Positions 38,523 to 58,353 of a stretch of DNA of 64,000 nt are shown piece after piece. The DNA is from Allorhizobium paknamense. GTDB lineage: Bacteria; Pseudomonadota; Alphaproteobacteria; Rhizobiales; Rhizobiaceae. Position 1 is the stretch's first letter. Every line of letters starts with the position of its first letter. Made by a program: the position numbers and the translations under genes. Below the pieces are notes generated by a model that saw only the letters and a program-made list of their open reading frames with translations, did not search any database and had not been told where the DNA came from. The DNA lies in assembly GCF_030815125.1 (NCBI RefSeq), contig NZ_JAUSWH010000010.1:62001-126000 (forward strand). The letters run 5' to 3'.

Positions 38523-38625
38523 GAGCATTTCAGTGGTTCACGGAAACACCGAAATGCTCCAACTCTTTGTTTTTACACATTTCCGGGCGGAAAACCGGTT
38601 TCCACTTTTCCTGGAAATGCTCTAT
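38521..38625. repeat. RIME-like intergenic mosaic element, full copy
   Basis: TAGAGCATTTCAGTGGTTC...CCGAAATGCTCCAAC, then TTTGTTTTTACACATTTC, the CGGGCGGAAAACCGG hairpin and CTTTTCCTGGAAATGCTCTA. It abuts the composite repeat directly, so two element types are stacked upstream of the Rid gene. Confidence 0.82.
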
Positions 38626-47672: not shown

Positions 47673-47696
47673 GAGCATTTCCTGGAAATGCTCTAA
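47673..47696. repeat. Short palindrome at the binding-protein stop codon
   Basis: GAGCATTTCCTGGAAATGCTC is a perfect palindrome (with one central base) whose trailing CTA provides the TAG stop of the following minus-strand gene. Confidence 0.7.
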
Positions 47697-48856
47697 TGCG
47701 CCGGATCGTGAACCTTTTCTACGGTTTCGAACTCGGTATTGTAAAGTTCGCCATTCACGCGTTCCACCTTGCGCATGTAGATGTTCTGCACGATGTCACG
47801 GGTGGCCGGATCGATGAAAATCGGGCCGCGGGGACTGTCGATGGTCATGCCCTTGGCGGCAGCCAGGAAAGTGTCGCCGGTGGCGTCTCCCTGTGTTTTG
47901 TCCAGCGTCTTGTAGATCAACTGCAATGCGTCATAGGCGGCCACGGCGACCATATTCGGACGCATCCCGTTGTTTTCCTTTTTGAAGGCATCAACGAAGC
48001 TCTTGTTTTCGGGGGAATCGTGGCTTGTCGAGTAAGGGCCGCCGGTGATTGCGCCGAGTGCCGGATCTCCCATGCTGTTGAGAAGGTCGTCATCGGTCAC
48101 ATCGGCCATGGCGATGACCTTGATCCCGCTCTTGTCCAGCCCGCGCTCGACATATTGTTTCATGAAGCTGGTACCGGCGCCGGTGGGCACGAAAACAAAG
48201 AGTGCATCCGGCTTCTGGTCTGCCGCCTTTTGCAGGAAGGGCGAGAAATCCGGGCTGGCCAAGGGCACCCGGAGCTTTTCAGCCACGGTGCCGCCACTGG
48301 CCGTCAACGCCTTGTCGAACCAGGCTTCAGCATCGACACCCGGACCATAGTCCGACACAATGCTGACGAATTTTTTCGTCCCGTTTTTCGCCGCCCACTG
48401 GCCGATCACATTCGCCATCTGCGGAACGGTCCAGGAAACGCGCAGCATGTAAGGCGAAGCGTCCATGATCGAGGAGGTTGCCGCGACCATGATCACCTGC
48501 GGAATTTTCGCCCGCTTGGAAAGCTGCGCCACGGAAAGGGCTGCTGGCGTATTGCCGAAACCGGTCAGGATGGACACACGGTCCTTGGTGACGAGTTCCT
48601 GCGACAGGCGAAGCGCGTTATCGGCCGCCGAGGCGTCATCCTTCACGATGAATTCCACCTTCTTGCCACCGGCGGTTTCGCCATGGGTGGCAAGGAAAGT
48701 CTTCAAGGCCGCGCTGATCTGACGCCCATTCGACTGGAAGCCGCCGGTCAATGGGATGACCACCCCGACCTTGACCGTGTCCGCTGCCATCGTCGCGGTC
48801 GATGCGGCTGCCATGGCGATCATCGCCAGTCCACCGATTACTGTTCTGCGTTTCAC
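47693..48856 (-). CDS. Branched-chain-amino-acid-type ABC binding protein (LivK-like)
   Basis: The 387-aa protein has a Sec signal (about residues 1-24) and the type-1 Peripla_BP_6 fold (VGVVIPLTGGFQSNGRQI near the mature N-terminus). The start is GTG behind GGGAGGAG. It is the last gene after LivF, unusual only in that the binding protein is distal. Members of this class in aromatic clusters bind benzoates, hydroxybenzoates or phenylpropanoids, which would fit the downstream-pathway genes galB, galC and galD in the same direction. The stop is supplied by a repeat. Confidence 0.9.
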   Translation of the reverse strand: MKRRTVIGGLAMIAMAAASTATMAADTVKVGVVIPLTGGFQSNGRQISAALKTFLATHGETAGGKKVEFIVKDDASAADNALRLSQELVTKDRVSILTGFGNTPAALSVAQLSKRAKIPQVIMVAATSSIMDASPYMLRVSWTVPQMANVIGQWAAKNGTKKFVSIVSDYGPGVDAEAWFDKALTASGGTVAEKLRVPLASPDFSPFLQKAADQKPDALFVFVPTGAGTSFMKQYVERGLDKSGIKVIAMADVTDDDLLNSMGDPALGAITGGPYSTSHDSPENKSFVDAFKKENNGMRPNMVAVAAYDALQLIYKTLDKTQGDATGDTFLAAAKGMTIDSPRGPIFIDPATRDIVQNIYMRKVERVNGELYNTEFETVEKVHDPAH

Positions 48857-48978
48857 TCTAGTCTCCTCCCTGAGTAAAAAATGAAGGGTTTGACAGGTCT
48901 TGTTTTTTTGTCCTGACCTGTTCGCCAGGCAAAGCAGGTGCCACCGGTCGATGACAGCTGCTCCCGGCCTGCCTCGTC

Positions 48979-49683
48979 CTATGTGCCGATCCCAAGGAAA
49001 CGGCCGAGCGTTTCCGTGTCCGCCGCCAATGCCGCGCTGTCGCCTGAATGGGCAACCGCGCCCCTGTCGAGGATCACCGCGCGCTCGGTCATGGCGAGAA
49101 TTTGCTGGGCATGCTGTTCCACGATGATGGCTGCCAGCCCTTCTTCGCGCACGATCCGCCGGATCGAGGCCAGAAGCTCTTCCACGATGATCGGCGCCAG
49201 CCCTTCGGTCGGCTCATCGAGCAGCAGGATTTTCGGATTGAGCGCCAGCGCCCGGCCAATCGAGAGCATCTGCTGCTCGCCGCCAGACAACTGGTTACCG
49301 AAATTGCGACGCCGTTCCTTCAGGCGGGGAAACAGCTCGTAAACCGCCTCCAGCGTCCAGCGGCCCGGACGAGCGGAAGCAGTGATGTTTTCCTCAACGG
49401 TCAGGGAGCGGAAAATACCGCGCTCCTGAGGCACCCAGCCAATCCCTGCCTCAACCCGGCGTTCCGGCGACAGCCGGCTCATATCCTGACCGTTCAGAAG
49501 AACTCTGCCGGAATGAAAGCGCGTCAGGCCGATCAGGCTGTTCAAGGTCGTGGTCTTGCCGACACCATTGCGCCCCAGCAGCGCCATGGCCTGCCCTTGC
49601 GCCAGAGTGAAGCTCACCTTTTGCAGAACAACCGCGCGGCCATAGCCTGCCGACAGGCTTTCGATTTCCAGAAGATCAGTCAT
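48979..49683 (-). CDS. livF: LivF-type ABC ATPase
   Basis: The 234-aa ATPase has Walker A GRNGVGKTT (about 36-44), signature LSGGEQQMLSIGRAL and Walker B LLLDEPTEGLAP, hallmarks of LivF. Start 49683 overlaps LivG by 8 bp. It pairs with LivG to energise the LivH/LivM channel. Confidence 0.93.
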   Translation of the reverse strand: MTDLLEIESLSAGYGRAVVLQKVSFTLAQGQAMALLGRNGVGKTTTLNSLIGLTRFHSGRVLLNGQDMSRLSPERRVEAGIGWVPQERGIFRSLTVEENITASARPGRWTLEAVYELFPRLKERRRNFGNQLSGGEQQMLSIGRALALNPKILLLDEPTEGLAPIIVEELLASIRRIVREEGLAAIIVEQHAQQILAMTERAVILDRGAVAHSGDSAALAADTETLGRFLGIGT

Positions 49684-50428
49684 GATGGCCGCCCCCGAGA
49701 TAAACATCCTTCACCCTGGGATCATGGGCGATCTCCTGGCTGGTACCTTCGGCGAACAGCGCGCCGGAGACGAGCACGGAAATGCGGCTGGCAAAGGTGA
49801 AAACCAGGTCCATGTCATGTTCGATCAGCAGGATCGACACATCGGAGGGCAGCGCCGCCAGACGGGAGAGAACCTCCTGGCGATCTGCTTCCGGCACGCC
49901 GGCGGCAGGCTCGTCCATCAGCAGCACGCGCGGCTTGAGGGCGATCGCCATGGCGATTTCCAATAGCCTCTGCTTGCCATAGGGGAGGTCACAACAGCGG
50001 TCCTCCGCAACCGTATCGAGGCCGAAATCGCTGACCAGATCGGCGATTTCGCGATCCAGGCCCTTCAGGCGGCTCAATCCGCGAAACATGTTCCAGCCAT
50101 GGCCCCGCCGTTCTGCGATCACCAGTGCGAGGCTTTCCACCACGCTGAGCTGTCCGAACAACTGGTTGATCTGGAAGGTGCGTACCAGACCCCGCTGCAC
50201 CCTGCTTTCCCGCTTCAGCCCGGTAATGGGCTTGCCATCCAGCAGAATGTCGCCCGACGATGGCTTGATGAGGCCGGTCAGCAGATTGATGAAGGTGGTT
50301 TTTCCGGCGCCATTCGGGCCGATCAGCGCATGCCGCGCACCCCGTTCCAGCTTGAAACTGACATCCGAGGTGGCCTTTAATCCGCCGAAGGTCTTGTTCA
50401 GGTGGCGGGTTTCGAGAACGGCAGTCAT
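49676..50428 (-). CDS. livG: LivG-type ABC ATPase
   Basis: The 250-aa ATPase has Walker A GPNGAGKTT (about 38-46) and Walker B VLLMDEPAAGVPEADRQEV, the usual LivG layout. In the signature position the sequence reads DLPYGKQRLLEIAMAIAL, the typical LPYGxQR variant of LivG. It overlaps LivM by 4 bp (ATGA). Confidence 0.93.
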   Translation of the reverse strand: MTAVLETRHLNKTFGGLKATSDVSFKLERGARHALIGPNGAGKTTFINLLTGLIKPSSGDILLDGKPITGLKRESRVQRGLVRTFQINQLFGQLSVVESLALVIAERRGHGWNMFRGLSRLKGLDREIADLVSDFGLDTVAEDRCCDLPYGKQRLLEIAMAIALKPRVLLMDEPAAGVPEADRQEVLSRLAALPSDVSILLIEHDMDLVFTFASRISVLVSGALFAEGTSQEIAHDPRVKDVYLGGGHHD

Positions 50429-51441
50429 GCCTGATCCTCCTTTGCCTTGGACCGTTCCGCCTTACCTTTCAGGCGCCGGGTGAGCGCCGCAAGGGCGCGG
50501 TGCGGGCGTTCACGGCCGATCAGAACGAAGGCCACGAGCATGAGGCCGATCCAGAATTGCCAATATTGCGGCGTGAGGTTGGAAAGTTCATCCTGAATGA
50601 GTTTGTAGACAAGCGCGCCGAGCGCGCCGCCGTAAAGATAGCCGGGACCGCCGATCGTCAGGATCATCAAGCCATCCGCCGACTTCTGGAAGGAAAGGGC
50701 GTCGAGCGAAACAAATTGCTGCGTCTGGGCAAAGAGAGCGCCGGCAATGCCCGCATAGGCGCCGCTGACCGTGTAGATGGTCACCAGGCGGGCATGCACG
50801 GGAATGCCGACGGCGGAGGCGCGCAGCGGATTGTCGCGGATGGCGCGCAGGGAGTAGCCGAAGGGCGAGGACAGCAGGACCCGGGCGATGAGCATCAGCG
50901 CGAACAGTACGACAAGGCTGTAGGCGCAGGCAGTTTGACCGAAGATATCGAAGTCGAACACACCGAAAAGCGGCTGGATCTCCATGCCGCGCAAGCCATC
51001 GGCGCCGCCGGTCAGCCAGCTTGCCTGGTTGGCGATTTCCATCACCACGGCGGCAACGCCAAGCGTCACCATCAGGCGGGTGAGATCGCCACCGCGCAGC
51101 AGCAGCGGCCCGGTCAGAAGCGCCAGCAGGGCGCCGCACGCCGCGCCCACCAGCAGGCCGCTGATCGGCTCTCCGGTAACATGGATCGAAAACAGTCCGG
51201 CAGCATAGGCGCCCAGCCCATACATGGCCGCCTGCCCGAGGGACACCATGCCCGCATAGCCAAGGATCAGATCCAGCGACAGCGCGAGAATGGCAAAGCC
51301 AGCGATTTCATTGAGGATCAGATGATAGTCCGGAAGAAAGAACCAGACCGCCACAGCCAGCAGCCAGAAGGAGACTTCAAGGGGGCTCAAACGGCGGGTG
51401 CGGCCAAGGGCGCGGGTGATGCGGTGTTGCGACGGGCCCAT
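50425..51441 (-). CDS. livM: LivM-type ABC permease
   Basis: The 338-aa protein has about nine to ten membrane segments with the LivM signature GYAGMVSLGQAAMYGLGAY (about 63-81). A charged C-terminal tail (RLKGKAERSKAKEDQA) is longer than usual. Its start overlaps the LivH stop (TGATG). Confidence 0.92.
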   Translation of the reverse strand: MGPSQHRITRALGRTRRLSPLEVSFWLLAVAVWFFLPDYHLILNEIAGFAILALSLDLILGYAGMVSLGQAAMYGLGAYAAGLFSIHVTGEPISGLLVGAACGALLALLTGPLLLRGGDLTRLMVTLGVAAVVMEIANQASWLTGGADGLRGMEIQPLFGVFDFDIFGQTACAYSLVVLFALMLIARVLLSSPFGYSLRAIRDNPLRASAVGIPVHARLVTIYTVSGAYAGIAGALFAQTQQFVSLDALSFQKSADGLMILTIGGPGYLYGGALGALVYKLIQDELSNLTPQYWQFWIGLMLVAFVLIGRERPHRALAALTRRLKGKAERSKAKEDQA

Positions 51442-52295
51442 CAGTTACCCCTTGCCAGCAGGCCCTGCGGCCTCAGAACGAGAACAGCCACGAGGACGAT
51501 GTAGATGACGAAGCCGCCGAGCGAGGGCATGTAATATTTGCCGAGCACATCCGCCAGACCAAGCAGTAGCGATGCCAGCAAGGGACCGACGAGGCTGGAG
51601 GTGCCGCCGACGGAAACCACGATCAGAAAATACACCATGAATTTCAGCGGAAAGGTGGGGTCGAGGCTGATGATCTCCGCCCCCAGCGCACCGCCCAGGC
51701 CTGCAAGACCGGAGCCGACGGCAAAGGTGATGGCGAAGAGGCGGTTGACCTGAATGCCAACGCCGCGGGCCACGCGGCGATCGTCCACCGAGGCCCGCAA
51801 CTGGCTGCCGAAACGGCTGCGGCTGTTGATGAGCTGCAACATGGTCGCCAGAAGCCCGCAGACGACGATCAGGAAGGCGCGGTAAATGCCGATGCCGATA
51901 CCGGCGATCTCGATCCGTCCTTTCAGAAAGTCCGGCAGGTTCAGGATCTGCTGCTGCGATCCGACCAGAAAGTCGACCCCGGCCACGGCCATGAAGACAA
52001 TGCCGATGGAAAACAGAACCTGATCCAGGTGGCTCTTTTCATACATCGGCTTGTAAAGCAGCTTTTCCAGAATGCCGCCCGCCGCTGCGGTGGCCAGAAA
52101 CGCCACCGGCAGCGTCGCCAGAAAGGGAATGCCGGTTCTGTTGGTCAGAAGCACCGTGACGTAACCGCCTGCCATGGCGAAGGCGCCATGGGCGAGATTG
52201 ATGAAATTCATCAATCCGAGCGTTACGGCAAGGCCGCAGGAAAGCAGAAACAACAGCATGCCATAGGCAATGCCGTCGAAGATCAAGGTCAGCAT
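51441..52295 (-). CDS. livH: LivH-type ABC permease
   Basis: The 284-aa protein has about eight membrane segments and the LivH motif LGLMNFINLAHGAFAMAGGY (about 26-45). Start 52295 is fixed by GGAGG 5 bp upstream; the frame is open 22 more codons. It is the first gene of the importer part. A motif similar to one upstream of galB lies 110-135 bp upstream. Confidence 0.92.
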   Translation of the reverse strand: MLTLIFDGIAYGMLLFLLSCGLAVTLGLMNFINLAHGAFAMAGGYVTVLLTNRTGIPFLATLPVAFLATAAAGGILEKLLYKPMYEKSHLDQVLFSIGIVFMAVAGVDFLVGSQQQILNLPDFLKGRIEIAGIGIGIYRAFLIVVCGLLATMLQLINSRSRFGSQLRASVDDRRVARGVGIQVNRLFAITFAVGSGLAGLGGALGAEIISLDPTFPLKFMVYFLIVVSVGGTSSLVGPLLASLLLGLADVLGKYYMPSLGGFVIYIVLVAVLVLRPQGLLARGN

Positions 52296-52405
52296 CGATC
52301 CTCCAGAAGGGATGGAATTGCCCAATGGTTCTCCTCCAGCGGGCCGTCTTGCGGCCACCATGTCGTCAAGCGGGGGTCTTTCCCATTCAGAAGTGCCTGC
52401 GCCTT

Positions 52406-52483: not shown

Positions 52484-53551
52484 TCACACTTCGGTTTGAC
52501 GGGCGAACACGACGCCGTCGAACAGTTTGCGGGCGGTGCGGATATTGCCTGCGCCGCGAACGCCGCCATCCTCGGCAATATCCAGAAAAACCTCCATGTC
52601 CCCGGAGGGATGCTCCACATGGAAGCGCCCGTCCGGCGGCTGGACGGCCAGTTCGGCTGCAGGTCCATTATGAAGACGGGTCGCGGTTGCCACGGTAATG
52701 GCGGCAAACACGCCGATGGAGGCGTGAACCCGGTGGGGAATGAAGCTGCGGGTGGCGATGGCCCCGCCTGCGGTGGGAGAGGAGACCAGGATCATCTTCG
52801 GGACCGAAGCCTGGCTGACATCGCCGAGCGCCATCATCGGCCCCGCCTGGAGGCGGATGGCTTCCAGCCGGGCTTTCACGGCCTCGTTTGCCTCCAGTTC
52901 CTCGCGGCTTTCACACCCCGAAAGCCCGACATCGCTGGCGCGCAGAATGACGCAGGGCATGCCGTTGTCGATCAGGGTTGCCTCCACGCCGTCGATGACA
53001 TCCACGTCTCGGCCCGTCGGCAAAAGGCTGCCGCACATGGAGCCGGCGATATTGGCAAAGAGCAGCGGCACCGCCGCATGGCTGCCCGGCACCCCGGCAA
53101 TCACTGCGGTCCCCCGATAGTTCACCCGCCCGCCCGGCGTTGAAATCCGGGCGATGGCGACTTCGCCGGAATTGACCATGTGAATGCGTACCTGCGTTTC
53201 CGAACCGGTCACGGGCACCAGGCCACGCTCGATGGCGGCGGGGCCGACACCGGCCAGAATATTGCCGCAGCCCTGCGCCGTGCTCACCAGCGCCTGATCG
53301 ACGAAGACCTGAAGAAACAGATAGTCGATATCCGCGTCGGGACGGCTGGAGCGCGAGAGGATGGCCACCTTTGAGGTCAGCGGATCGGCGCCGCCGATCC
53401 CGTCGATCTGGCGCGGGTCGGGAGAGCCCATGATCCGGAGCAGCAGATCGTCCCGTTCCGCTGGACTGTCCGGCAGGTCTTCTGCCAGGAAATAGGCGCC
53501 CTTGGAGGTGCCGCCGCGCATCCACAGGCAGCGAATGCCATCGTCAGACAT
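52484..53551 (-). CDS. galD: 4-oxalomesaconate tautomerase (GalD, PrpF family)
   Basis: The 355-aa PrpF-type isomerase has the family N-terminus [19 protein letters not shown], then [20 protein letters not shown] and the Cys in [16 protein letters not shown]. These match GalD, which converts the keto to the enol form of 4-oxalomesaconate in gallate breakdown. The start at 53551 overlaps the GalC stop by 8 bp. PrpF homologues for methylaconitate are an alternative, but adjacency to GalC and GalB supports the gallate-type assignment. Confidence 0.85.
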
Positions 53552-54215
53552 AGCGCAGCCCCTTTGCCGCCAGCGTTTCGCGCATGTTGTAGATGTCGAG
53601 GCCCAGTTCACCCGCAGCGAGACGCTTGCGCTTGGCCTCCTCATTGGCCAGACGCTGCTCGGCGGCGGCAAGAACGGTTTCGGCCTCGCTACGCTTCACC
53701 ACACAGACCCCATCGTCATCGGCAACGATAATGTCTCCCGCTTCGATATGGGCGCTGGCGCAGACGATCGGCACATTCACCGAGCCCAAGGTTTCCTTGA
53801 CGGTGCCTTGTGCGGAGACCGCCTTCGACCAGACCGGAAACTGCATGGCGGTCAAATCCCGGATATCGCGCACCCCGGCATTGATGATCAGCCCACGGCA
53901 GCCCCGCGCCTGTGCCGAGGTGGCCAGAAGATCGCCGAAATAGCCGTTATCGCAAGGGCTGGTGGGCGCGAGAACCAGAATGTCGCCGGGCCTGATCTGC
54001 TCGATGGCTACATGCACCATCCAGTTGTCGCCGGGCGGGGCGGAAATCGTCACCGCGGAACCTGCAATCTGCGCGCCCGCATAGATGGGGCGCAGGTAGC
54101 TGGCCAGCATGCCCTTGCGACCCTGGGCTTCGTGCACGGTGGCGACGCCCGCCTCTGCCAGACGGTCGATGATCTCGGCTGAAGCCCGCTCGATGTTTTG
54201 AACGACGATGGCCAT
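53544..54215 (-). CDS. galC: 4-carboxy-4-hydroxy-2-oxoadipate aldolase (GalC/LigK, RraA fold)
   Basis: The 223-aa RraA-like class-II aldolase contains the D-X20-R-D active-site motif (Asp95, Arg116, Asp117) and [12 protein letters not shown] near residue 62, as in LigK/HMG-CHA aldolases. It splits 4-carboxy-4-hydroxy-2-oxoadipate to pyruvate and oxaloacetate. It overlaps GalD and follows the VOC dioxygenase by one base. Confidence 0.85.
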
Positions 54216-54216
54216 C

Positions 54217-55176
54217 TCAATGCTCCGTGGATTTTACCGGTGGCGTCCCATGGGTATGGAAGGTTTCGATTGTTTTCAGGCCCCAGGCCTGCCCCTTCTT
54301 GCGGTCCGTTTCCGTCCAGCAGATCGGCTTCCAGTCCGGCGCCAGAATGAGGCGGGCCCCGGAATTGGCCAGTTCAATGCGATTTCCGGCAGGCTCCCAG
54401 ACATAGAGAAAGAAGGTGCCCTGAATGGCGTGTTTATGCGGCCCGGTTTCGATATGGACGCCGTGTTGCAGGAAGAGATCGGCGGCGCGCAGAATGTCCT
54501 CCCGCTGGTCCACCGCATAGGTCACATGGTGCAGGCGGGCCGTGCCGCCGCCATGTTCCTCGGTGCAGGCCAGGTCATAGGTCTTGTTGTTGACCGTGAA
54601 CCAGCAACCGCCCAGCCGGCCATTGTCGAGCTGGATATATTCGGTCACGCGCGAGCCCAGGCAGGTTTCCATGAAACGGCGAAATTCGCTGACATCGGAT
54701 GACAGAAGGTTGAGATGGTCGATCCGGCGCGGCGCAGCGCCCGTGAAGGCGGAGGCGGTGTTTTTCAGCGCCGCTTTCTCTGCCTCCTCCTGTGGCGCAT
54801 ACCACTGGGTGTCGTAATAGATCTCGAAGACGTGGCCGAAGGGATCCTCGAAGCGGAAGGCGCGGCCATGGCTTGCGTCGCCCTCCACCCAGCCGATGAC
54901 CTTGTAACCCGAGGCCTCGATGATCGCCACCCGCCGCAACAGCGCCTGTTCGGAGGCTGCGCGATAGCCGATATGCGCGACACCCGTGCTATCGGATTTC
55001 GTCAGCTTCAGCGTGGCATATTCATAATCGTCCCAGGCCCGGAGATAGGCCGAATTTTCATCCTGGCCCGAGAGTTTCAACCCGTAGATACGGGTGAAGA
55101 AATCGAGGCTTTCTTCAAAACGGTCGGTCAGGAGTTCTACGTGCCCGAGATGGGCGATGTCGAAACGTGCTTCCAT
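54217..55176 (-). CDS. VOC-family extradiol dioxygenase in the 4-oxalomesaconate operon
   Basis: The 319-aa two-module type-I extradiol dioxygenase has predicted ligands His154 (RIDHLNLL), His217 (RLHHVTY) and Glu268 (NRIELAN), with Tyr258 and His249 at the usual second-sphere positions. The residue aligned with the second-sphere catalytic His of catechol 2,3-dioxygenases appears to be Tyr200 (KTYDLAC instead of the usual HD). It lies between galB and galC, where gallate operons carry a LigAB-type gallate dioxygenase, so it may supply the ring-cleavage step. The substrate is unproven. Confidence 0.83.
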
Positions 55177-55204
55177 GTCACAATCCTGGAGTTTTTCCGT
55201 GTTT

Positions 55205-55309
55205 TTGGACGGAAAGCTGCTGCACACTTTTGCGCGGCATGCTCTAACTCTTTGTTTCTACGCATTTCCGGACGGAAAACCGGTTTCCACTTTTTCTGGA
55301 AATGCTCTA
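55205..55309. repeat. RIME-like intergenic mosaic element
   Basis: GGACGGAAAGCTGCTGCAC, GGCATGCTCTAAC, TTTGTTTCTACGCATTTCC, the CGGACGGAAAACCGG hairpin and CTGGAAATGCTCTA follow in order. The final CTA is the TAG stop of the galB-like gene. It separates galB from the dioxygenase gene inside an otherwise co-directional block. Confidence 0.8.
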
Positions 55310-56041
55310 AAGCTCGTCCACGGTACGCGGGAAAAAAGACTGGAAGCCTTCGGCATATTTCGCCTTGCGCCCACCGGACTGGCCGCCGGAATTGCGCATG
55401 AAATGGTTGGCGCGGTTCTCGGCGACATTGCGATAATAGGCCCAGAGATGTTCCTGGCCTTCCATGCATTGAATGGCGGCCCATTTCTTCTCCCAGACCG
55501 GGGTAATGTCCAGGAAGGTATCCGGCTTCCACCCCATCTGCTCGGTCTGGTGCGGCTCGAAAAGATAAAGCTGCGGCGCGCCGAGAACCTTCTGGCCGGG
55601 ATGATGCCCCCAGGCCTGGGCGATCATCCGGGTCTCCAGCGCGATCTGCGTGGCATACATGTGGTCCGTGTTATAGGGGTCGAACTGCGAATGGCTCAGC
55701 ATGAAGGCGGGCTGCACGTTACGGATGACATCCACGACCCTGAATTTCTCCTCATCGCTCAAGCGCAGCGGATAATCGCCGAGATCGAAGCAGAGGAGTG
55801 CGTGAACGCCGAGCGCCTCGGCGGCCTTTTCCGCTTCCGCGCGCCGGGCGTCCTTGACGCGCTCCAGCGTCATGCCCGGCTCTTTCCAGAGCTTGGCGGA
55901 TTCGCCGCGCTCGCCGAAGGAAAGGCAAAGCACCGTCACCTCATATCCCTTCTCCGCATGCAGGGCGATGGCCCCGCCGCAGCGCCAAACGAAATCCGCA
56001 GCATGGGCGCTGATGACCAGCGCCGTCTTCTTCTCCGGCAT
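55307..56041 (-). CDS. galB: 4-oxalomesaconate hydratase (GalB, PIG-L fold)
   Basis: The 244-aa PIG-L/LmbE-type metalloprotein has SAHAADF (His13 and Asp16 of the usual AHPDD site) and DPYNTDHMYA (Asp126, His127). GalB of pseudomonads is a PIG-L-type hydratase that turns 4-oxalomesaconate into 4-carboxy-4-hydroxy-2-oxoadipate; this protein fits by fold and by its galC/galD neighbours. PIG-L deacetylases are the alternative. It is first in the minus-strand block and divergent from the dehydrogenase/LysR genes. Confidence 0.8.
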   Translation of the reverse strand: MPEKKTALVISAHAADFVWRCGGAIALHAEKGYEVTVLCLSFGERGESAKLWKEPGMTLERVKDARRAEAEKAAEALGVHALLCFDLGDYPLRLSDEEKFRVVDVIRNVQPAFMLSHSQFDPYNTDHMYATQIALETRMIAQAWGHHPGQKVLGAPQLYLFEPHQTEQMGWKPDTFLDITPVWEKKWAAIQCMEGQEHLWAYYRNVAENRANHFMRNSGGQSGGRKAKYAEGFQSFFPRTVDEL

Positions 56042-56217: not shown

Positions 56218-57123
56218 ATGAACCCTGAACATTCCACGCCAAGGGCCAAGCGCAAGATTGCCTTCATCGGCTTCGGGGAGGCTGCGCGTGCCTTTGCCTC
56301 CGGCTGGGCGCTCGGGCCGGAGTGGACGCTTGCGGCATTCGATATCAAGCTTGCCATGCCGCAGGCCGCCGACGCGGTGCGGGAGGCAGCGCAAGCCCTG
56401 AAGGTGGTGCCTGTGGACAGCACCGAGCAGGCCCTTCAGGGCGCGGAGGCGGTGTTCAGCCTTGTCACGGCGGATTGCGCCGCCGATGCGGCACGCCAAT
56501 CCGCCGCCGTCATGGCAAAGGGAGCCCTTTATTTCGATTGCAACTCCTGTTCTCCCGTCACCAAGGCTGGCAATGCGAGCGTGATCGAAGCCGCTGGCGG
56601 GCGCTATGTCGATGTGGCGGTGATGGCCCCGGTGCATCCGCTGCGACACCGTACCCCGCTTCTCGTGGCGGGACCGCATGCTGAGGCGGCTCTGGCATTT
56701 TTCTCGGCGCTTGGCATGCAGGCCAGGCCCGCGGGTAGAAAGGTCGGCGAAGCATCGGCTATCAAGATGATGCGTTCGGTGATCATCAAGGGGATGGAGG
56801 CCCTGACGGCGGAATGCCTGCTGGCCGCGCGGCGTGCCGGGGTGGAGGATGCGGTTGTGGCCTCGCTTCAGGCTTCCGACCCAGGCGTGGACTGGCGCAA
56901 GCGGTTTTCCTACAATCTCGAACGCATGATGGTGCATGGCGCGCGCCGCGCCGCCGAAATGCGGGAGGTTGCCAAGACATTGAGCGATTACGGCATATCC
57001 AACCGGCTTGCCGTGGCCGTTGCCGAATGGCAGGATGACATCGCCGCGCTCAATCTGAAGGGCGGTGACGATGATCTCACGGAGCGGCTGGATCGGATAT
57101 TGCACCAGACCGCGCAAAGCTGA
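56218..57123 (+). CDS. DUF1932/6-phosphogluconate-dehydrogenase-like NAD(P) oxidoreductase
   Basis: The 301-aa beta-hydroxyacid-dehydrogenase-like protein has the N-terminal IAFIGFGEAARAFASGW Rossmann motif, DCNSCSPVTK in the middle, and a C-terminal DUF1932-like helical domain (about 190-295). Start 56218 follows AGGAGG. It is divergent from galB and 57 bp before the LysR gene. In aromatic clusters such proteins may oxidise a hydroxyacid side chain; the reaction is unknown. Confidence 0.82.
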   Translation: MNPEHSTPRAKRKIAFIGFGEAARAFASGWALGPEWTLAAFDIKLAMPQAADAVREAAQALKVVPVDSTEQALQGAEAVFSLVTADCAADAARQSAAVMAKGALYFDCNSCSPVTKAGNASVIEAAGGRYVDVAVMAPVHPLRHRTPLLVAGPHAEAALAFFSALGMQARPAGRKVGEASAIKMMRSVIIKGMEALTAECLLAARRAGVEDAVVASLQASDPGVDWRKRFSYNLERMMVHGARRAAEMREVAKTLSDYGISNRLAVAVAEWQDDIAALNLKGGDDDLTERLDRILHQTAQS

Positions 57124-57180: not shown

Positions 57181-58353
57181 ATGCGGTTCAATCTCCGGCA
57201 TCTGCGGGTTTTGCTCGCGGTTGTCGAAACCCATTCGGTGACGCGGGCGGCGGAATTGTGCCATGTCTCTCAGCCCGCCGTGACCCAGGCGCTTTCCAAG
57301 ATCGAAGCCGTGACGGGTGAGGTTCTGTTCACCCGCAGCCCCCAGGGCCTGTTTGCCAATGGTGCCTGCGAGGTGCTGGCAAAGCGCGTGCGGCGGGCGC
57401 TGGATTTTCTCGATCGTGCCTTTGAAGAGGTTGCGCCGCGCCTGAAGGTCACGGCGACGCTCTCCCAGCTGGAGGCGCTGATTGCCGTGCGGGAGCAGGA
57501 AAATTACACGCTGGCGGCAAAACGGCTCGGCGTGTCGCAGCCGACGGTACACCGGGCGGTGTCCCAGTTGGAGCGGGAGGCCGGGCGTCCGCTGTTTGAG
57601 CGCACCGCCTATGGAATCATGGCAAGCCGCGCCGCCCAGCTTCTCGCCCAGGCAGCACGTCTGGCGCTGGCGGAACTCTCACAGGCGGAAGCGGACCTCG
57701 CCGAAAGCCGGGCGGAAGAGCGCGGCAGGCTGGTGATCGGCTCCATGCCCTTGTCCCGCTCCTATATTCTGCCCGCAGCGATTGCCCGTTTTCGCCAGCA
57801 GCGTCCCCGCCTGCCGATCCAGGTGGTGGAGGGGGCTTACGGCGAACTTCTTGCGGGGTTGCGGAGGGGCGAGATCGATTTTCTCATCGGCGCCCTGCGC
57901 GACCCGCCGCCGATTGGCGATGTCGAGCAGGAGGTCCTGTTTTACGATACGGTGGTCATCGTGGCCGGGCATCAGCATCCGCTGGCGGGGCGGGATAATA
58001 TTACCGTCGAAGATCTTGCCGCCTTTCCCTGGGTGGTCTCGATGGCCAGCACGCCGATCCGGCAGCATTTCGATCAACTCTTCCTCCATTCTGCGCACGG
58101 TCCCCCCACCAGCATCGTCGAATCCGGATCACTGATCCTGATGCGTGAACTGCTTGGCCGAAGCAATCATCTGGGCTTTGTTTCCGGCGGGCAGGCGCGC
58201 GCCGAAATCGACCGTTCGCTGGTGACGGCGCTCAAGGTGGATCTGGCCCATACCCGCCGCCCCATCGGGCTGACGCGGCGAAAGGACTGGCTGCCCACCG
58301 CCGCGCAACGGCTTTTTCTGGAGCATCTGCGCGTCTTGGAGCCTGTCCGGTAA
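57181..58353 (+). CDS. LysR-type regulator with two tandem DNA-binding domains
   Basis: The 390-aa protein is longer than the usual 300. Residues 3-61 form a LysR winged helix-turn-helix (AAELCHVSQPAVTQALSKIE), and residues 94-151 form a second complete one (AAKRLGVSQPTVHRAVSQLE). The substrate-binding domain follows at about 175-380. It starts behind GGGGAAAAGG, is transcribed with the dehydrogenase and probably controls the gal/liv operon. A perfect terminator covers its stop codon. Confidence 0.9.
   Translation: MRFNLRHLRVLLAVVETHSVTRAAELCHVSQPAVTQALSKIEAVTGEVLFTRSPQGLFANGACEVLAKRVRRALDFLDRAFEEVAPRLKVTATLSQLEALIAVREQENYTLAAKRLGVSQPTVHRAVSQLEREAGRPLFERTAYGIMASRAAQLLAQAARLALAELSQAEADLAESRAEERGRLVIGSMPLSRSYILPAAIARFRQQRPRLPIQVVEGAYGELLAGLRRGEIDFLIGALRDPPPIGDVEQEVLFYDTVVIVAGHQHPLAGRDNITVEDLAAFPWVVSMASTPIRQHFDQLFLHSAHGPPTSIVESGSLILMRELLGRSNHLGFVSGGQARAEIDRSLVTALKVDLAHTRRPIGLTRRKDWLPTAAQRLFLEHLRVLEPVR

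Follow-up and report, generated by a model that had tools for sequence, protein, structure and literature searches.

A 64,000-nucleotide stretch of the Allorhizobium paknamense genome (contig NZ_JAUSWH010000010.1, positions 62,001 to 126,000), here called the window, carries a block of galB, VOC dioxygenase, galC, and galD genes on the minus strand at 52484 to 56041. A reading made earlier from the letters alone (the sequence-only reading) had described this block, and we found it to be real, with all four genes present, intact, and co-directional. The genes point to the 4-oxalomesaconate (OMA) route of gallate degradation, with a VOC enzyme in the place of the usual ring-opening dioxygenase:

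55307-56041, minus strand: GalB-like OMA hydratase of the PIG-L/LmbE fold (244 amino acids [aa]; PF02585)
54217-55176, minus strand: type I (VOC) extradiol dioxygenase, Tyr200 variant, proposed gallate dioxygenase (319 aa; PF00903)
53544-54215, minus strand: GalC, CHA aldolase (223 aa; over the cut-offs of TIGR02798 and NF006731)
52484-53551, minus strand: GalD, OMA tautomerase of the PrpF family (355 aa; over the cut-off of NF033377)

The VOC and GalC genes are spaced by 1 bp, GalC and GalD overlap by 8 bp, and GalB lies upstream, separated from the VOC gene by a 130-bp gap. The VOC start was taken as the ATG giving 319 aa, where the automatic open reading frame (ORF) call starts at a GTG at 55227; for GalD, the automatic call uses a TTG further upstream. 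Three products are homologs of OMA-route enzymes, as the sequence-only reading had claimed, since GalC and GalD exceed curated cut-offs and the closest solved relative of GalB is an OMA hydratase. GalC scores 381.2 bits with TIGR02798 (cut-off, 304.5) and 392.7 bits with NF006731 (cut-off, 179), and its best solved relative is the CHA aldolase 3noj (E value of 7.2e-93). GalD reaches 499.5 bits with NF033377 against a cut-off of 440, with 6p3j, a "(4E)-oxalomesaconate Delta-isomerase," as its best solved relative (E value of 2.6e-137). In the NCBIfam profile search, GalB matched no curated GalB model. Its best solved relative is 5cgz, named "4-oxalmesaconate hydratase" (E value of 1.3e-94, residues 5 to 243 aligned), with which it shares the motif AH[AS]ADFVWR; the runner-up is at 1.8e-9. 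By profile searches, the VOC enzyme is the sole ring-cleaving dioxygenase among the four operon genes, also as had been noted.

The VOC enzyme matches PF00903 in two stretches and does not match PF02900, the LigB family. It stays under the equivalog cut-offs of catechol 2,3-dioxygenase (TIGR03211, 292.6 bits against 320.2) and HpaD (TIGR02295, 200.3 bits against 321.4). The control was a second VOC gene of the same genome, a true HpaD with 418.2 bits against the same cut-off of 321.4, which is 32% identical to the window enzyme and retains His at the equivalent of position 200. Aligned to homoprotocatechuate 2,3-dioxygenase (HPCD), the window enzyme retains the metal triad as H154, H217, and E268 (HPCD H155, H214, and E267) together with N156, W192, H249, and Y258, while R243, R292, and R293 of HPCD align to T244, K294, and G295.

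Relatives of the VOC enzyme in a collection of genome contigs numbered at least 593, and the best 80 were kept as the nearest VOC loci, each searched over the fetched stretch of up to 8 kb on each side of the VOC gene. The 80 are not all independent: L016 and L028 share an assembly, and L040 and L044 belong to different strains under the same species name. The predicted replacement of the second-sphere His by Tyr200 was borne out, as HPCD His200 aligns with Tyr200 and Tyr is found in all 80 nearest loci; a separate pattern count gave Tyr at this position in 64 of 64 parsed ORFs. The alignment of L002 to L081 has 81 VOC rows, 80 with Tyr and one with His, the latter being the second VOC gene of L068. 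In a broader alignment of 96 VOC sequences, which includes the 80 near loci and relatives from Roseomonas and Thermus, K198, Y200, T244, and H247 are common to these three sets. Four relatives at 41 to 43% identity carry His at 200 and differ at 198, 244, and 247. In a 30-row tree with some long branches and a bootstrap that had yet to converge, the 23 Tyr200 sequences form one side of a branch with support of 94/95. The structure prediction of the active site that had been proposed was only partly informative. A structure search with a model built from 23 close relatives supported the VOC fold, but the model, at a pLDDT of 68.8 and with its lowest confidence in parts of the catalytic C-terminal half, is too poor for the pocket, and we therefore make no claim on pocket or docking.

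The association with gal genes recurs well beyond the window. GalB, GalC, and GalD occur together in 71 of the 80 nearest VOC loci by tblastn (singly, GalC in 74, GalD in 73, and GalB in 71), spread over Rhizobiales, Rhodobacterales, and one Arenimonas metagenome-assembled genome (MAG). Nine loci do not have the full set: the variant L049, L029 with GalC and GalD, L042 with GalC alone, and six with none. In the Halomonas locus L049, the order is GalD, LigJ, GalC, and VOC, and GalB was not found in the locus; its LigJ matches the solved OMA hydratases 2gwg (E value of 2.6e-143) and 6dxq (E value of 2.6e-130). By homology, then, two unrelated OMA hydratases, GalB and LigJ, appear to partner one VOC family. 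The GalB-GalC-GalD backbone, in turn, is found with a LigAB-type enzyme in L116, L117, L119, and L125, with a VOC enzyme in the window, L113, and L114, and with both in L123. At L123:6939-14431, LigA/LigB-type genes, an alpha/beta hydrolase, GalC, GalB, GalD, a DUF1932 protein, and a VOC enzyme that is 77 to 81% identical to that of the window stand in one cluster, so that both dioxygenase classes are kept there.

More distant relatives are found on plasmids. The VOC gene of a Thermus oshimai plasmid (58 to 59% identity) is adjoined by PIG-L/GalB-like, CHA aldolase, and DUF1932 genes, with a 4-hydroxybenzoate hydroxylase-like gene nearby; its CHA aldolase scores 193.9 bits with NF006731 (cut-off, 179) and is under the cut-off of TIGR02798. 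The Roseomonas plasmid relative L095 (55 to 56%) lies in one cluster with CHA aldolase, LigI-like, DUF1932, and LigB-type genes, and an Agrobacterium vitis plasmid (L098) has the full set plus a Liv importer. In plasmid records, such VOC genes are annotated as "catechol 2,3-dioxygenase" or "VOC family protein."

A separate LigAB-type gallate dioxygenase (GalA) elsewhere in the genome, which the sequence-only reading had named as the result that would overturn its proposal, was searched for with NF009904, a gallate dioxygenase model that also picks up LigB proteins in other genomes. It found no match in the A. paknamense genome, whose completeness is 99.99%. The sole LigB-family (PF02900) protein there, of 295 aa and encoded next to argC and a heme A synthase-like gene, is closest to solved 4,5-DOPA dioxygenases (8in2, E value of 5.9e-43) and scores 125 bits with NF007914, under the cut-off of 233. 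We rejected a hidden GalA on the basis of the NF009904 result and the DODA-like nature of this protein. No close LigI was found in this genome either, the best match to a LigI query being at 24% identity and an E value of 8e-5; the query itself matches the solved LigI 4d8l at 4.8e-104. The protocatechuate 4,5-cleavage set of LigAB and LigI was accordingly not found in the genome; protocatechuate has a different route here, with PcaH, PcaG, and PcaD all scoring over cut-off.

We searched 49 VOC genomes, drawn from 50 of the 80 loci, for LigAB-type and LigI proteins. GalA over the NF009904 cut-off was found in 0 of the 49 VOC genomes, and 44 had no LigAB-type match at an E value of 1e-40. In a class survey of 289 genomes, with thresholds of at least 70% identity for VOC and an E value of 1e-60 for LigAB-type, GalB was present in 14 genomes and VOC in 5, all of which are within the 14 (hypergeometric probability of 2.5e-6, with the A. 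paknamense genome left out and relatedness not corrected). LigAB-type genes also occurred in 14 genomes, of which six carry GalB, and the genomes of the four His200 relatives mentioned above are outside the 14 with GalB. Five GalB genomes (G126, G161, G224, G255, and G318) have neither VOC nor LigAB-type at the thresholds used. We also observed galB clusters with galC and/or galD at L115, L118, L120, L122, and L124, whose genomes gave neither a VOC nor a LigAB-type match at these thresholds; at L122, another, shorter VOC protein (27%) is encoded beside a DUF1932 gene.

Taken together, these results suggest that the operon serves gallate (3,4,5-trihydroxybenzoate) catabolism, with the VOC extradiol dioxygenase opening the ring instead of a LigAB-type GalA or DesB, a reading to which we give a probability of roughly two in three. 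The sequence-only reading had left a choice between a convergent gallate-type dioxygenase and another aromatic compound entering at OMA, and the genome context favors the former. The VOC enzyme is the candidate source of OMA because no other source, neither LigAB nor a close LigI, was seen in the genome. Gallate is the candidate substrate because a tricarboxylate product needs three adjacent hydroxyls, and of the two trihydroxybenzoates that have them, only gallate gives OMA when the cleavage is worked out by hand. By the same reasoning, 2,3,4-trihydroxybenzoate and pyrogallol were rejected as substrates, as their cleavage gives no OMA. Judging from context and homology, non-orthologous replacement of the gallate dioxygenase is the parsimonious reading. 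In the proposed pathway, gallate would be imported, perhaps via the Liv system downstream of the operon, and the metal-dependent VOC enzyme with Tyr200 would cleave it between C4 and C5 to OMA. Going by their families, GalD would interconvert OMA tautomers, GalB would hydrate OMA to CHA, and GalC would split CHA into pyruvate and oxaloacetate.

The genes flanking the operon bear on import, on regulation, and on a possible upstream step:

47693-52361, minus strand: Liv-type ABC importer, with a binding protein, two ATPases, and two permeases, recognized from the ORFs and their order
56218-57123, plus strand: 6PGDH-like NAD(P) dehydrogenase with a DUF1932 domain, divergent (PF09130 and PF03446)
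57181-58353, plus strand: LysR-family regulator, likely for the operon (PF03466 and PF00126 [HTH_1], in two stretches)

The LysR protein, which from its position and conservation (LysR in 59 of the 80 nearest loci) probably regulates the operon, has TF_pcaQ as its best NCBIfam model, with 223.2 bits and under the cut-off of 303.8. The importer and a "side-chain dehydrogenase" had been read as evidence for an aromatic acid. Both genes indeed adjoin the operon, but their evidence on the substrate is weak and the importer varies among loci. Matches to urea/branched-chain ABC families, all under cut-off, were obtained for the binding protein, one ATPase, and one permease. The Liv importer is found in two of the nearest loci (L002 and L009), a TRAP importer cluster is found in 37, and the A. 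vitis L098 importer is annotated as branched-chain ABC. The name of the dehydrogenase did not hold: it is a 6PGDH-like/DUF1932 protein (ATG at 56218, preceded by AGGAGG), and none of the results links it to an aromatic side chain. The DUF1932 dehydrogenase accompanies OMA-route clusters of either dioxygenase class and also stands beside the LigAB-type clusters L119, L123, and L125. Inspection by eye of the gap between galB and the VOC gene (55177-55306) showed an imperfect palindromic repeat in two copies. Its core, with up to 5 mismatches allowed, is also present at position 38591 of the window and twice near the DODA-like gene on contig C1, and the repeat therefore looks interspersed.

Several observations weigh against a gallate-opening VOC enzyme. 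An enzyme that has lost the catalytic His could act on an unusual substrate, and the structure model is mediocre. The DUF1932 protein, found in 39 of the 80 nearest loci by tblastn and in 49 by clustering, has no place in the gallate route. Gallate-making genes were not seen beside the 80 loci, with 0 matches to the genome's own tannase query and 0 to a Rieske oxygenase query, in a search by single-query tblastn, with a Rieske query of unproven substrate, and by clusters judged by eye; a 4-hydroxybenzoate hydroxylase query matched in one locus (L056). The genome does encode a tannase/feruloyl-esterase family protein (PF07519, 362.9 bits; L129:9164-10840) with a signal-peptide-like start, as judged by eye, far from the operon on contig C1; it adds only weak support, because feruloyl esterases belong to the same family and the operon is on a different contig. 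Among the 49 VOC genomes, 5 have a LigAB-type gene and 16 have a LigI-type protein at an E value of 1e-40, 34 to 100% identical to the query. Two of the 14 GalB genomes (G228 and G156) have both VOC and LigAB-type, and so does the genome of the Halomonas locus with LigJ (G361), which is one of the 5 and has LigI as well. GalB, GalC, and GalD are all missing from the stretch searched at L010, L021, L043, L051, L065, and L068, no GalD annotation or match was found beside the Thermus VOC gene, and the VOC gene of a Pantoea At-9b plasmid stands without gal genes.

Some of these observations would fit a VOC enzyme that cleaves a gallate derivative, such as 3-O-methylgallate or a gallate ester, or another aromatic compound reaching OMA, with the DUF1932 protein oxidizing an upstream compound. 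The frequency of DUF1932, also beside LigAB-type clusters, the variation of importers between Liv and TRAP, and the carboxylesterase and alpha/beta hydrolases adjoining the A. vitis operon are all in its favor, as are the LigI- and LigJ-type genes near the VOC gene of L043, which would be expected if 2-pyrone-4,6-dicarboxylate forms. We nevertheless consider this explanation unlikely: the A. paknamense genome has no close LigI, 31 to 41 of the 80 loci gave no DUF1932 match, and the clusters present in more than 9 of the 80 consist, by eye, of core genes, LysR, DUF1932, TRAP parts, and shadow ORFs. Should the enzyme instead be a protocatechuate 4,5-dioxygenase, DUF1932 would oxidize the semialdehyde in a LigC-like manner, with entry via 2-pyrone-4,6-dicarboxylate and LigI. 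The LigI-type genes in 16 of the 49 genomes, those near the VOC gene in three of the 80 loci (L004, L043, and L054), and the Roseomonas cluster with its LigI-like, DUF1932, LigB-type, and VOC genes would suit such a route. It is made quite improbable by the 33 of 49 VOC genomes without a LigI match at an E value of 1e-40 and, in A. paknamense, by the lack of a close LigI and the presence of PcaH, PcaG, and PcaD. DUF1932 as a substitute for LigC is also weakly rejected by L119, where a Gfo/Idh-type dehydrogenase of LigC-like appearance, as judged by eye, is encoded alongside it; this second protein is not named over cut-off by any NCBIfam model.

It is more improbable still that the VOC gene and galBCD are mere neighbors, the former opening an unrelated catechol and the latter serving another dioxygenase. 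The six loci without GalB, GalC, and GalD are what mere neighborhood would produce, and in G156 the VOC gene and a LigAB-galBCD cluster lie on separate contigs. Chance proximity does not readily explain, however, a cluster conserved in 71 of 80 loci across Rhizobiales, Rhodobacterales, and the Arenimonas MAG, the GalB- and GalC-type genes near the 59% identical Thermus enzyme, or the 44 of 49 VOC genomes without a LigAB-type match.

Returning to the reading of the VOC enzyme as a gallate dioxygenase, we lean toward a wider proposal based on the same homologies: a second, unrelated class of gallate dioxygenases, with a VOC fold and Tyr, may exist in Rhizobiales, Rhodobacterales, some gammaproteobacteria, and the 59% identical Thermus relative, and may be how many apparently galA-negative bacteria mainly open the gallate ring. 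In the open-access literature, surveyed mostly at the level of listings, neither a gallate dioxygenase of the VOC type nor a VOC enzyme acting in the OMA route turned up. If the proposal holds, gallate degraders among rhizobia and marine Rhodobacterales would have gone unnoticed or been recorded as degraders of catechol. Nature would then also offer a family with Tyr at the position of the catalytic His, a residue that in HPCD has been changed by mutation (H200 variants are among the listed structures). The pathway itself, the gal/OMA route, is known, and gallic acid is a plant tannin building block; what would be new is a variant in the ring-opening enzyme.

The closest parallel is the gal gene set of Pseudomonas putida KT2440, which uses the gallate dioxygenase GalA; 5cgz is a GalB structure. 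The OMA route and the families of GalB, GalC, and GalD are common to this set and the window, but its ring cleavage is done by the LigB-fold GalA, whereas the window has a VOC-fold enzyme. On the side of the dioxygenase, HPCD (1f1x), AphC (7q2a), and 3lm4, the last being the best structural match of the VOC model (Z score of 30.0, root-mean-square deviation of 3.1, 303 residues), have the same VOC fold and metal triad. They have His200 where the window enzyme has Tyr, and identity is 23 to 35% among the Foldseek matches listed. The closest solved relative by sequence is 9wgj, named "Catechol 1,2-dioxygenase" in the PDB (E value of 1.6e-105), which was not among the best 50 matches of either structure search. 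It has Lys-Ser-Tyr where the window enzyme has Lys198-Thr-Tyr200, and Ser in place of His at 247. Chloridazon-catechol dioxygenase presumably also has Tyr at the equivalent of position 200, and we take His194 of BphC to be equivalent to HPCD His200. The known gallate dioxygenases, GalA and DesB, belong to the LigB superfamily according to the relevant parts of the AromaDeg (PMC4250580) and DesB (PMC3962378) papers. In the type II enzyme DesB of Sphingobium SYK-6, the catalytic His192 matches His194 of the type I enzyme BphC in position, as given in a figure legend (PMC3962378). DesB and the window enzyme would thus perform the same proposed reaction, the opening of the gallate ring, one with His192 and the other with Tyr200. 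As the catalytic His position is conserved between DesB and BphC and the VOC family has Tyr, either Tyr200 would act as the acid-base catalyst, or the third hydroxyl of gallate would make the His dispensable.

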